Positions 13,187 to 36,371 of a DNA stretch of 36,371 nt are shown piece by piece. Origin of the DNA: Candidatus Poribacteria bacterium (GTDB lineage Bacteria > Poribacteria > WGA-4E > WGA-3G); assembly GCA_009841255.1 (NCBI GenBank), contig VXMD01000075.1, forward strand, positions 17,369-53,739, written 5' to 3'. How positions within the stretch are numbered: position 1 is the first letter of the stretch; the number at the start of each line of letters is the position of its first letter. A program made the position numbers and the translations under genes. Under the pieces are notes generated by a model. That model was not told the origin of the DNA, searched no databases, and saw nothing but the letters and a program-made list of their open reading frames with translations.

Positions 13187-13419
13187 CGTTTTCTATCCTA
13201 ATGCAGATTAGTAAAAAAATTAACCGAATTCCATTACATTTCGTCCAACGGCGTAAATGCTACGGATTGGACCTCAATCGTATCACTATTATATTGTAAA
13301 TTCATTTTTTTTAGTCCTTTTTTCATCAAAGTTTACGGATTGGAACCCCCTGCCTTCAGGCGAGGGAGGAAAATCCGCCCTCTTGAATTAGACCAAAGCG
13401 TTTTCTTGTGAAAAAACAC

Positions 13420-13448
13420 TTGACATTTTTTGTAAATTATGGTTTAAT
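13420..13448 (+). promoter_or_regulatory. sigma70-type promoter of tnpB copy 1
   Basis: TTGACA at 13420-13425 and TTTAAT at 13443-13448 with a 17-bp spacer. The predicted transcript start falls at about 13454, the first base of the structured leader. The same layout occurs at the other two leader copies. Confidence 0.7.
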
Positions 13449-13452
13449 AGAT

Positions 13453-13534
13453 GTATCGTGTTGGCAGACATACAACGCATTACCGCTTGGTAATGTGTCT
13501 GCCTCCCACGTTGTAGGGGATAAACGCACGATAC
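13453..13534 (+). ncRNA. Structured pseudoknotted leader RNA, copy 1 (before tnpB)
   Basis: Helices: outer stem 13453-13460 (GTATCGTG) with 13527-13534 (CACGATAC). Inner stem 13463-13470 (GGCAGACA) with 13496-13503 (TGTCTGCC). Apical stem 13478-13484 with 13489-13495, closing a GCTT loop. The bulge 13472-13477 (ACAACG) pairs with 13509-13514 (CGTTGT) downstream, forming a pseudoknot. Unpaired conserved pieces are CCCA (13505-13508) and GGGGATAAA (13516-13524). It begins at the predicted transcript start and ends 10 nt before the tnpB ATG. Copies 2 and 3 keep the pairings with changed bases. Confidence 0.8.
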
Positions 13535-13544
13535 ACGATATACC

Positions 13545-14744
13545 ATGAGATTAACCTTCAAATATCCTGTGTATCCGACGAAAACACAGGAAGAAATATT
13601 GTTATTGTGGTTTGACCACTTGTGTGAACTTCAGAACTCTGCCCGCGGTAACCGCAAACATGCCCATCAGACCGAGGGGCGTTTCGTCACGCAGTTTGAG
13701 CAACAGGCACTTTTGACAGTAGCCCGTGCGAAGTATGACGATTTTCGCGAAGTACCACAGGATTTCCAAGTCTCTATCCTCAAGCGCGTTGACAAAGCGT
13801 TTGATGCATTCCGTAGGCGGTGTCGCGAAGGAGCAGAGAAAAAAGGGTATCCTCGCTACAAAACGCGTGTCCGTTCTCTAACATGGTGCTTACGAAAGCA
13901 CAAACTCAAAACAGGTGAACGTGTCCGCCAGAATCCGATAATAGAAACCGGGTTTCGCCATAATCGCTTAAAAGTGCCGAAGTTAGGTGAAGTCAAGATA
14001 CGCATGCACCGTCCCTTACAAGGTGACCCGAAAGAGGTCACGATCGTCAAGAAAGCGTCGGGTTGGTATGCTCACATCTCTTGTGAGATACCGGATACGC
14101 CAAAAGTTGAACCGACTGACGCTGTCGCAGTTGACGTAGGCACGACACACTATCTGACGACTTCTGAAGGTGAAAAAGAGGACAACCCGCGCTGGTATCG
14201 TCAGGCAGAAGGACTGCTCCGAAAACACTCTAAAGCCCTTTCCCGAAAGAAAAAAGGGAGCCACCGAAGGAAAAAACAGCAACACACACTCGCCTTACAC
14301 CATGAGCGAACGACAAACAAACGCAAAGACTTTATCGGAAAACTCGTCTATAAACTCTACCACCACCAAGAAAACAATGTTTTAGTGGCAGAGGATTTAA
14401 GCGTATCGAACATAGTAAAGAATAAACACCTCAGCAAGAGCATTTCCGATGCGTCTTGGGCAACCTTCTTTGAATGGTGTGCAAGCATAGCCGAAAGAGA
14501 CGGCTTGCACTTCCACCAAGTAGACCCCAAGAACACTTCGCAAACCTGCTCGACTTGCGGTGAAAAATCGCCAAAGAAACTTTCACTGGCGATACGGACC
14601 TTTGATTGTAGTTTTTGTGGCACGTCTTTAGACCGAGACCACAACGCTGCGATAAACGTACTCTTACGGGCGGCTTGCGCCCATCGTGGAGAGCGTTGGG
14701 TTACCGACCTCTGTGAAACGAGAAACTTATCGGTAGACCGATAG
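13545..14744 (+). CDS. tnpB: TnpB RNA-guided nuclease, IS605 OrfB family, copy 1
   Basis: TnpB is an omegaRNA-guided DNA endonuclease, ancestor of Cas12, that helps IS200/IS605 elements persist. This 399-residue protein is intact. It has an N-terminal helix-rich region beginning MRLTFKYPVYPTKTQ, RuvC-I Asp in VAVDVGTTHYL (about residue 193), RuvC-II Glu in VLVAEDLSVSNI, a zinc-finger pair CSTCG/CSFCG, and RuvC-III Asp in DRDHNAAINVL. All catalytic residues and zinc ligands are present, so activity is plausible. No good Shine-Dalgarno lies close to the ATG; the nearest AGGGG is about 25 nt upstream inside the leader RNA. The terminal codons form a hairpin that is probably part of the guide RNA. 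The protein is very different from the second TnpB here. Confidence 0.93.
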   Translation: MRLTFKYPVYPTKTQEEILLLWFDHLCELQNSARGNRKHAHQTEGRFVTQFEQQALLTVARAKYDDFREVPQDFQVSILKRVDKAFDAFRRRCREGAEKKGYPRYKTRVRSLTWCLRKHKLKTGERVRQNPIIETGFRHNRLKVPKLGEVKIRMHRPLQGDPKEVTIVKKASGWYAHISCEIPDTPKVEPTDAVAVDVGTTHYLTTSEGEKEDNPRWYRQAEGLLRKHSKALSRKKKGSHRRKKQQHTLALHHERTTNKRKDFIGKLVYKLYHHQENNVLVAEDLSVSNIVKNKHLSKSISDASWATFFEWCASIAERDGLHFHQVDPKNTSQTCSTCGEKSPKKLSLAIRTFDCSFCGTSLDRDHNAAINVLLRAACAHRGERWVTDLCETRNLSVDR

Positions 14745-24217: not shown

Positions 24218-24307
24218 TACGGATTGGAGCCCACATCTTCAGGCGTGGAAGGAAAATTCGCTCTCATGTATGAGACCACAGCGTTTTTTGAAAAAAAACA
24301 CTTGACA
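24218..24307 (+). mobile_element. Solo left end of an IS605-type element (remnant)
   Basis: These 90 bp align with the left end of the IS at 13334-13425. Shared pieces in the same order are TACGGATTGGA, CTTCAGGCG, GGAAAAT, GAGACCACAGCGTTTT-like and AACACTTGACA. The match ends at the -35 hexamer; the leader RNA, tnpB and right end are gone. A degenerate GGGATAA and CACGAT follow at about 24370-24390 and may be leader debris. It begins 3 bp outside the start codon of the minus-strand sulfatase-fold gene. Confidence 0.75.
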
Positions 24308-24408
24308 TCCTGGTCAAGGCACCCACTGCCTAACTGATGGGTTAAGATTACGGTCGGAGGAAATTGACGGGATAAGTTACAAACCACGATTCCGATGGGT
24401 GTAAGGGG

Positions 24409-34263: not shown

Positions 34264-34267
34264 GATA

Positions 34268-34350
34268 GTATCACGTTGGCAGACATGAATAGCGTTACCG
34301 CTTGGTAACGTGTCTGCCATCCCACTATTCAGGGGATAAACGCGTGATAC
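34268..34350 (+). ncRNA. Structured pseudoknotted leader RNA, copy 2 (before tnpB)
   Basis: Same architecture as the copy at 13453. Outer stem 34268-34275 (GTATCACG) with 34343-34350 (CGTGATAC). Inner stem 34278-34285 with 34311-34318 (GGCAGACA/TGTCTGCC). Apical stem 34293-34299 with 34304-34310 (CGTTACC/GGTAACG, loop GCTT). Pseudoknot 34287-34292 (GAATAG) with 34325-34330 (CTATTC). Relative to copy 1, two outer-stem pairs and one apical pair change in a compensatory way and all six pseudoknot pairs are new. Confidence 0.82.
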
Positions 34351-34360
34351 GTGATATACC

Positions 34361-35470
34361 ATGAAAACCTACAAATATCCGCTTTATGATCAGTCGAATA
34401 CGATCTGTCTTGGCAATCTGCTTGATGATATGTGGCAAGTCCACGCGTATTTCCATAAGTGGCAACGTCAGCGATATAAAGACGGGCTGCCGTATGCCAA
34501 CCACGCTGCGATGTGTTCCCACGTGACGGATTTGAAACGCACGACGCACCCACATTGGAAAGCTTTGCCGAGTCAAGCGATTCAAGAAGAACTCAAACGG
34601 ATTCACTTGGCGTATGATCGTTTTTTCAAGAAACTTGGCGGTAGACCCAAGATTAAAAAACGGCATAGGTTCAAGTCCTTCACATTGAAACAAACGGGCT
34701 GGTCTCTGAAAGAGAATCGCTTCACCCTCAATTTCAGAAAGTGGGAAAAGGGTAAATGGCGACATAACAAAGTCGCTTATACGTTCCGTAAACACCGCGA
34801 TTTCTATGGGACTATCAGTCGTATCACGATAAAACGCGACGCTTGCGGTGATTATTGGCTTTATCTCATAACCGAGTTTGTAGAAACGAAACCACTGCCA
34901 ACGACGGGTCAAAGTGTCGGGGCAGACTTCGGTATGAAAGACGCATATTTGACGCTGAGCACGGGTGAGAAGAAACAGCACCCACAACCTTTGAAACAGT
35001 CCTTGAACCAACTTCGGTCTCTCAACAAAGCATTGAGTCGTAAGCAAAAAGGTTCTCATGGCTGGTGGCAGTGTGTAAGACAAATAGCACGCCTGTATCG
35101 GAAAATCAGCAACCAGCGCAAAGACTTTCACTGGCAACTCGCCTCTGAACTCTGTAAGAAGTTTGATACGATTGCCATTGAAACCTTGAACCTTGACGGC
35201 ATGAAACGGCTTTGGGGACGGAAAGTCTCCGATCTTGGGTTCTATCAGTTTGTTGAGATATTGAAGTATAAGTGCCAAAAACATGGGCGTAAGTTGCTCG
35301 AAGTCGGTCAATGGACAGCTACGACAAAACCGTGTAGCGATTGCGGATTTCACAACGAAAATCTAACTCTGAACGATCGGCAGTGGACGTGTCCTGACTG
35401 TGGTTCACACCACGATAGAGACGTAAACGCTGCGATAAACATTTTGCGGGCAGGGATAGCCACGACTTAG
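34361..35470 (+). CDS. tnpB: TnpB RNA-guided nuclease, IS605 OrfB family, copy 2
   Basis: A 369-residue TnpB, intact but only distantly related to the one at 13545. The RuvC-I Asp is in VGADFGMKDAYL (about residue 189), RuvC-II Glu in IAIETLNLDGM, the zinc finger is CSDCG with CPDCG, and RuvC-III Asp is in DRDVNAAINIL near the C-terminus. The N-terminal half begins MKTYKYPLYDQSNTICLGN and has the OrfB helix-turn-helix-like domain. All active-site residues are present. As with copy 1, there is no close Shine-Dalgarno, only AGGGG 25 nt upstream within the leader RNA. The element has 130 bp after the stop for guide RNA and right end. Confidence 0.93.
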   Translation: MKTYKYPLYDQSNTICLGNLLDDMWQVHAYFHKWQRQRYKDGLPYANHAAMCSHVTDLKRTTHPHWKALPSQAIQEELKRIHLAYDRFFKKLGGRPKIKKRHRFKSFTLKQTGWSLKENRFTLNFRKWEKGKWRHNKVAYTFRKHRDFYGTISRITIKRDACGDYWLYLITEFVETKPLPTTGQSVGADFGMKDAYLTLSTGEKKQHPQPLKQSLNQLRSLNKALSRKQKGSHGWWQCVRQIARLYRKISNQRKDFHWQLASELCKKFDTIAIETLNLDGMKRLWGRKVSDLGFYQFVEILKYKCQKHGRKLLEVGQWTATTKPCSDCGFHNENLTLNDRQWTCPDCGSHHDRDVNAAINILRAGIATT

Positions 35471-35712: not shown

Positions 35713-35740
35713 TTGAAAAACATCTATAAACTGCTATACT
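35713..35740 (+). promoter_or_regulatory. sigma70-type promoter of the orphan leader RNA
   Basis: TTGAAA (35713-35718), 16-bp spacer, TATACT (35735-35740). The predicted start is at about 35746, the first base of the orphan leader. The stretch 35606-35712 between the IS and this promoter shows nothing else. Confidence 0.6.
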
Positions 35741-35745
35741 ACCTC

Positions 35746-35825
35746 TATCACGTTGGCAGGCATAATCGGCGTCCCGGCTTGGTGACGTGTCTGTCTCCCA
35801 CCGATTAGCGGATAAAAGCGTGAAC
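35746..35825 (+). ncRNA. Structured pseudoknotted leader RNA, copy 3 (orphan, no tnpB)
   Basis: Inner stem 35755-35762 (GGCAGGCA) with 35788-35795 (TGTCTGTC), kept by two wobble pairs. Apical stem 35770-35776 with 35781-35787 (CGTC/GACG plus a weaker top). Pseudoknot 35764-35769 (AATCGG) with 35801-35806 (CCGATT). The outer stem TCACG/CGTGA is kept, though one T of the 3' arm is missing. CCCA and GGATAAAA are conserved. It is not followed by tnpB but by a 145-codon membrane-protein gene. Confidence 0.75.
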
Positions 35826-35845
35826 GTGAGAGTCAACAAATACTT

Positions 35846-36283
35846 TTGAAAGACAATCGTGAAAGCGAACAGAACAGATCCTCCATGTTTACAGTGCGAG
35901 ACGCTGAAAGCGCGATGATCGCGTTGACAAGTTTCTCGATCGCTGTTATTGTTGGCGTATTTTTATACAATCTTCTCATCGTAGGGAATAGCACCTTAAA
36001 ATCCCTCAGTGTTGTGCTTGGTAATGTTTCAAACATTCTGTCAGCAGCAACACTGTTGACCATACTTGAAGAAGGAATCAGTCTCATGTTTTACCGAATC
36101 AGACTCGCTCTGAAAGAAGAAAGGGAAATCAAAGAACAAGGACGCCAGGAAGCTTACCAAGAAGTGTCCGACTGGAACCAGCGTCGTCTTGAAGCCGAAG
36201 CACGTGGCGAAACGTTTACAGAGCCACCGCCGGGACACGATTCTCTAAAACCTAAAAAGAAAAAACGCTTCATCTTTTTCTGA
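35846..36283 (+). CDS. Small membrane protein with charged cytoplasmic tail
   Basis: A protein of 145 residues from a TTG start (M-K-D-N-R) or 132 from the ATG at 35885 (MFTVRDAESAMI); neither has a convincing Shine-Dalgarno. Two hydrophobic segments, about residues 23-47 and 52-75, are followed by a highly charged helical part (ALKEEREIKEQGRQEAYQEV) and a Pro/Lys-rich tail ending KKKKRFIFF. No enzymatic motif; the family is not recognised, though such two-helix proteins with a Glu/Arg/Gln-rich tail seem common in this kind of genome. Its transcript would start with the orphan leader RNA. The last 88 bases of the window hold nothing I can support. Confidence 0.6.
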   Translation: MKDNRESEQNRSSMFTVRDAESAMIALTSFSIAVIVGVFLYNLLIVGNSTLKSLSVVLGNVSNILSAATLLTILEEGISLMFYRIRLALKEEREIKEQGRQEAYQEVSDWNQRRLEAEARGETFTEPPPGHDSLKPKKKKRFIFF

Positions 36284-36371
36284 TCTCTCTTGATAATCGG
36301 ACCACCGCAATGACTTCAAATATAGTAAATTCTATAAATAAGTTTACATTTTATATCATGTATGTTAGCCT

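Follow-up and report, generated by a model that had tools for sequence, protein, structure and literature searches.

A covarying 5′ leader RNA of Poribacteria with alternative pairing partners, found before TnpB, restriction-modification and membrane-protein genes

Features of the locus

The window, by which we mean the whole 36,371-nt stretch that was analyzed (G000:C75:17369–53739), is part of a 5.73-Mb Candidatus Poribacteria genome and contains two tnpB genes, each preceded by a copy of a leader RNA, as well as a third copy located upstream of a gene for a 145-aa membrane protein (Table 1). The original prediction described this third copy as keeping the promoter layout, an inner stem with wobble pairs, the elements CCCA and GGATAAA, and a pseudoknot AATCGG/CCGATT, followed by a 145-codon frame and accompanied by neither a tnpB gene nor an IS left end. 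All of these features were present: the promoter reads TTGAAA and TATACT, the inner stem is GGCAGGCA/TGTCTGTC with two G-U pairs, and the pseudoknot can be extended to TAATCGG/CCGATTA; the outer stem P1 and the hairpin P4 (UCCC/GGGA and variants) are parts that the prediction lacked. The label “orphan” that it gave to copy 3 was wrong, because the leader family to which this copy belongs has hundreds of members.

Table 1. Features in the window (window positions; all on the + strand)
Feature	Position	Strand	Details
Leader RNA copy 1, upstream of tnpB 1	13452..13549	+	model R1 E = 1.8e-23
tnpB 1, 399 aa	13545..14744	+	Pfam OrfB_IS605 and Cas12f1-like_TNB
Leader RNA copy 2, upstream of tnpB 2	34267..34365	+	model R1 E = 1.8e-23
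tnpB 2, 369 aa	34361..35470	+	Pfam OrfB_IS605 and Cas12f1-like_TNB
Copy 3 promoter	35713..35740	+	-35 TTGAAA 35713-35718, 16 nt, -10 TATACT 35735-35740
Leader RNA copy 3 (G000:C75:53112-53208)	35744..35840	+	R1 E = 6.9e-17, R2 E = 5.7e-14
Copy 3 P1 5′ strand TATCACG	35746..35752	+	
Copy 3 P2 5′ strand GGCAGGCA	35755..35762	+	partner TGTCTGTC at 35788-35795
Copy 3 pseudoknot 5′ strand TAATCGG	35763..35769	+	within P2/P3 internal loop
Copy 3 P3 hairpin	35770..35787	+	two mismatches in copy 3
Copy 3 P4 hairpin, TCCC / CGGA	35796..35812	+	one mismatch in copy 3
Copy 3 pseudoknot 3′ strand CCGATTA	35801-35807	+	inside P4 loop
Copy 3 conserved joining segment UAAA	35813..35816	+	
Copy 3 P1 3′ strand, repeat 1, CGTGA	35819..35823	+	
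Copy 3 repeat 2 of P1 3′ strand, CGTGA	35825..35829	+	alternative partner of P1 5′ strand (P1′)
145-aa membrane protein, family 1	35846..36283	+	TTG start at 35846
Putative DNA methyltransferase gene, first codons ATGACTTCAAATAT	36310..36323	+	truncated just before contig end

Elsewhere in the window, a 70-bp unit is duplicated in tandem at the very start (1–55 identical to 71–125). A solo tnpB-IS left end at 24225–24310, ~82–88% like the left end at 13353–13426, has neither tnpB nor a leader nearby and is likely a deletion product or a non-autonomous element.

A covarying fold next to the start codon

Comparison of many copies showed that the leader, ~100 bases long, consists of an outer stem P1 enclosing P2–P3, followed by the hairpin P4, whose loop (A-7 nt-G) forms a loop-to-bulge pseudoknot with the internal loop of P2/P3; UAAA connects P4 to P1. 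The first alignment used the eight copies found in the genome itself with an exact pattern and contained 29 pairs, with 96.1% pairing. The pseudoknot paired perfectly in 8/8 copies, with double changes at 5/6 pairs and every variable pair altered on both sides; the observed covariation was matched by 0/500 shuffles, and slid controls collapsed. In an alignment of 46 divergent copies (A6), 97.1% of cells paired and 25/34 pairs showed changes on both sides, including pairs in P2 and P4 (P4 U-A to A-U in 22 sequences). There were 269 double-change cells compared with 77 after shuffling, 0/500 shuffles equaled the observed value, and the slid controls again collapsed. Judged from these alignments, covariation support for P1, P2, P3, P4 and the pseudoknot is very strong, and chance pairing is excluded. 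The unpaired letters at the junction are conserved while the helices vary. Like structured cis-regulatory leaders, the element has a conserved, covarying secondary structure and lies in the 5′ UTR, on the same strand as the gene and in a fixed relation to promoter and start codon. In several copies (G005 L149, L150, L158–L160 and G008 L069), the P3 loop carries a similar insertion of ~26 nt that is itself a hairpin (CCCCCTTCC..AGTAACGGG.GGGG.CCCCGG) and may be a small mobile hairpin.

The covariance model R1 found 29 copies in the genome itself. Model R2 matched 50/85 Poribacteria genomes, including all 38 genomes of the host genus (2–47 copies each), parts of the host family and three genomes of another family; it matched 0/10 genomes from other families of the class and 0/2 from the rest of the phylum. 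The whole window had no match in Rfam 15 at the gathering threshold, and lenient searches returned nothing for the leader at E-values up to 5 or for subtypes I and II at E-values up to 2. Pattern matches outside Poribacteria (Clostridia, Treponema and others) were chance occurrences inside coding sequence; across 18 loci chosen for titles other than Poribacteria, the best was one weak R1 match (L229, E = 0.008), and the listed matches lacked the fold. No published description of this RNA was found among titles and the openings of abstracts, in a collection outside which most subscription journals lie.

Upstream of the leader is a near-consensus sigma70-type promoter, with 5–6 matches to the -10 element in 136/143 leaders and to the -35 element in 119/143. 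It ends 5 nt upstream of P1 in 114/143 leaders, and the transcript should therefore begin at P1. The P1 3′ strand occurs twice in tandem, with 7-nt spacing in 134/154 unique leaders, and both repeats follow the 5′ strand: TATCACG occurs with CGTGATA-CGTGATA, TATCAGG with CCTGATA-CCTGATA, and TATCGTG with CACGATA-CACGATA. The alternative helix formed with repeat 2 (P1′) had 38 double-change cells compared with 8.7 in shuffles. Because both repeats track a single 5′ strand, P1 and P1′ are mutually exclusive; in an energy model that excludes the pseudoknot, the two states are nearly equal in energy, with P1′ a median of 2.6 kcal/mol above P1. A sequence-specific DNA operator at the tandem repeats was rejected, since the repeat word covaries with the P1 5′ strand.

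The covarying P1′ helix sits 4–6 nt from the start codon: an ATG follows repeat 2 at this distance in 108/138 leaders tested, and the tnpB start codon lies ~93 nt from the leader 5′ end (ATG mostly at +93/94). In copy 3, repeat 2 lies ~16 nt before the TTG start, farther than in the tnpB copies. A Shine-Dalgarno-like motif, scored at -16 to -4, was present in 1/112 leader genes vs 20/26 window genes (Fisher p = 8e-18). Most leaderless tnpB genes of the same genome have such a motif, either at the start itself or at another in-frame start close by; at one leaderless locus (L362), only the tandem repeat is left of a decayed leader. A TnpB group without a clear R2/R3 leader (L363, L364 and L365, on G000 C17, C46 and C26) carries another kind of leader, short and structured-looking (TACATCGTG...CACGATGTA in L365), which ends in an SD-like AAAGGAA ahead of the ATG and may be a third type, one that retained the Shine-Dalgarno sequence.

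The conserved alternative pairings suggest that the RNA switches translation of the downstream genes on and off. On balance, we favor the reading that it is a bistable, cis-acting, Poribacteria-specific 5′ leader that controls translation of mobile-element and defense-type genes. Points that weigh against this reading are the TnpBs without a leader, the small-protein targets with no known defense role, the more distant annotated starts of some subtype II operons, and the wider gap between repeat 2 and the start codon in copy 3. The missing Shine-Dalgarno sequence in 111/112 leader genes, when most leaderless genes have one, together with the fixed distance to the start codon, would also be expected if the fixed fold acted like an IRES, standing in for a Shine-Dalgarno sequence by recruiting or positioning the 30S subunit, with no need for regulation. 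We consider this unlikely, since recruitment does not need a second covarying P1 partner beside the start codon and would be blocked by it. Somewhat less likely still is that a host RNA-binding protein recognizes the leader and thereby represses or stabilizes all these mRNAs, with the tandem repeat as part of the control. The conserved unpaired junction letters amid variable helices and the association of the leader with one bacterial family agree with such a protein, but a small-molecule aptamer fits equally well, and no candidate for the protein was found.

Genes downstream of the leader

Among the leaders examined in detail, 144/161 (~90%) precede TnpB, and three more are cut by contig ends. 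Approximately a quarter to a third of the TnpBs in the window genome have no leader; TnpB as such can thus do without it. Model R2 found extra copies upstream of a GIY-YIG/NUMOD3 nuclease and also picked up, weakly, a second subtype. In a 54-kb phage contig (IMG/VR, IMGVR_UViG_3300033059_000057; L322, L323), one leader precedes tnpB and another a short ORF that has DGTHHFLG-like repeats and no Pfam match; this ORF adjoins RuvC-like and cytosine methyltransferase genes. A type I leader also precedes a family-2 coiled-coil membrane protein (L014/L204, G000:C8:155343), whose reading frame is broken and continues in another, as in a decaying copy.

The second subtype was searched with the pattern GGGTGGCA...TGCCACCC, which had sites in 25/58 genomes of the family, while the reversed pattern had 0. 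Subtype II retains the core UCCC-A-PK-G-GGGA-UAAA, its pseudoknot covaries, and CTGG occurs twice in tandem in 29/43 of its tails vs 0.3% in shuffles. Its targets include N6/N4 methyltransferases (one followed by a BglII enzyme), BglII, DpnII-like and Mrr enzymes, HSDR_N, an ISP-type enzyme, HmaA (PADLOC E = 2e-203) and a nucleotidyltransferase; in some of these operons, the annotated start lies 100–200 nt farther downstream. A further 40 sites were taken from R3 matches by rank and genome, blind to the genes, and the first gene was scanned, with two adjacent genes scanned at three loci. The first genes gave nine N6_N4 methyltransferase matches, and others encoded MvaI/BcnI and DpnII enzymes, HSDR_N, an SNF2/HmaA-type helicase, NACHT, an FRG-domain protein and many small signal-peptide coiled-coil membrane proteins. 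Because N6/N4 methyltransferases number 13–37 per genome (G000, G005, G010, G018), roughly 0.5% of genes, finding nine among 40 sites greatly exceeds the chance expectation (p ~1e-11 to 1e-13, with the gene total estimated). The small-protein targets of families 2 and 3 have no known defense role. Leaders thus stand before many non-transposon genes besides that of copy 3, and the target set is dominated by TnpB and restriction-modification or other defense-type genes. In copy number and in this preference, the family goes beyond what the original prediction had described.

The ends of IS200/IS605-type elements fold as single-stranded DNA hairpins, and many leader copies lie within such elements. 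That the fold works as single-stranded DNA, at a transposon end or a recombination site, rather than as RNA is nevertheless very improbable: the orientation and the distance to the start codon are strict, the promoter lies exactly at the 5′ edge of the element, restriction-modification genes also carry it, and the IS has a separate left-end hairpin upstream of the leader.

The 145-aa protein encoded after copy 3 has two predicted long helices and the C-terminal sequence W..RR.EAEARGE.FTEPPPG; it had no match in Pfam or PADLOC, and its AlphaFold model was of low confidence (pLDDT 63). The C-terminal motif YQE...WN.RRLEAEARGE.FTEPPP (residues 94–132) turns up by itself in numerous further proteins of Poribacteria, in the manner of a common tail or docking motif. 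Homologues of the protein were missing from just 1 of the 22 host-genus members searched. As the original prediction had anticipated for related genomes, the leader lies directly upstream of homologues in G013 (94% protein identity), G008, G019 (two), G005 and G001, making six genomes with the window genome, and the same arrangement occurs in two more Poribacteria contigs (L275 and L317). The TTG start is kept in full-length homologues; one G019 locus (L072) is matched over just the final 69 residues, and the TTG region is missing there. In G013, the gene after the membrane protein encodes a DNA methyltransferase, and from this gene order we infer that 36310–36323 in the window is the start of such a gene, the codons of which diverge at the window end, apparently through an insertion or an assembly break.

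The promoters of these orthologous leaders read TTGAAA/TTGACA-17-TATACT, the family-1 leaders are monophyletic (7/7, support 0.77), and their pseudoknots compensate (AATCGG/CCGATT, AATAGG/CCTATT, ATCGAG/CTCGAT). The genes flanking the unit vary between genomes, and these homologous loci contain no tnpB between leader and membrane-protein gene, nor IS ends or tnpB relics. Although a tnpB IS lies 100 nt upstream of copy 3 and most leader copies belong to tnpB, the alternative that copy 3 is a recent remnant of a deleted third IS, which the original prediction had allowed, is refuted at this locus and has a negligible chance of being right, because leader and gene are conserved together without tnpB in differing surroundings and the leaders form their own clade with compensatory changes. 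The same evidence bears out the other half of that prediction, that the fold is maintained outside the transposon: on these comparisons, copy 3 is a maintained leader of the membrane-protein gene and not a relic.

A possible translational switch and its relation to known systems

At the level of sequence, the fold, the promoter, the fixed start codon, the second covarying helix, the absence of a Shine-Dalgarno sequence and the target set are established, and a translational switch is the mechanism that we would derive from them. A strong promoter should start the transcript at P1, and the RNA folds into P1–P4, with the P4 loop kissing the internal loop of P2/P3 in the pseudoknot. For the one P1 5′ strand there are then two possible partners, repeat 1 (giving P1) and repeat 2 (giving P1′). 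With P1 formed, the pseudoknotted core would stack on it and leave ~11–13 nt ahead of the start codon free, so the ribosome could load (ON); with P1′ formed, the segment beside the start codon would be paired, and initiation would thus be blocked (OFF). This assignment of ON and OFF follows from the geometry. A ligand or protein bound to the core (junction U, A-pseudoknot-A, UAAA) may hold the ON form. In this manner, the leader would determine how much is made of DNA enzymes that could do harm (TnpB, restriction-modification, Hma and homing nucleases) and of small membrane proteins, including the 145-aa protein of the window.

Known control of self-damaging DNA enzymes in bacteria is mostly exerted by proteins such as repressors and C proteins. 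In this lineage, by comparison, hundreds of unrelated genes for DNA-acting proteins have come to carry a single RNA fold, which has a conserved, putatively bistable helix and no Shine-Dalgarno sequence; if the switch is real, selfish nucleases and immunity have RNA-level control in common. More speculatively, one RNA aptamer class could serve mobilome and immune system of the lineage alike as a sensor. A single signal, e.g., a phage- or stress-induced nucleotide, would then jointly open the TnpB, restriction-modification, Hma, NACHT and homing nuclease genes to translation, by exchange between two identical tandem strands and without a Shine-Dalgarno sequence; we hold this only tentatively. 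The proposed switch is directly testable, the element being ~100 nt with known pairing partners.

The transposase mRNA of IS200 has a structured 5′ UTR that controls its expression. Similarly, a 5′ structure in the transposase mRNA of ISPpu9 governs expression of the IS protein (PMC8450116). In contrast to both, the Poribacteria RNA family is common to many unrelated genes (tnpB, restriction-modification, membrane proteins). The guide RNA of TnpB is located where the 3′ end of tnpB meets the right end of the element, overlapping both. Although the leader is likewise a structured RNA of the tnpB locus, it differs from this guide RNA (omega RNA/reRNA, PMC11061315) in lying 5′ of tnpB and in also preceding genes unrelated to TnpB. 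Like RptR, reported as a repressor protein that serves as one regulator for restriction-modification and defense genes (PMC12255303), the leader would place such genes under a single control, with a cis RNA as the regulator instead.

The element also resembles riboswitches and other translation-gating 5′ leaders, with which it shares a compact 5′ fold, conserved junction letters, a pseudoknot and a predicted alternative pairing at the start codon; unlike them, it has no Rfam match, uses a tandem duplicate of the P1 strand as its alternative partner, and precedes mobile and defense genes rather than metabolic genes. In the ZTP (pfl) riboswitch, a pseudoknot joins the internal loop of a stem to the loop of a downstream hairpin. 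The Poribacteria leader has the same pseudoknot topology, but with other conserved letters, no Rfam match, and an enclosing P1 with a tandem 3′ strand.
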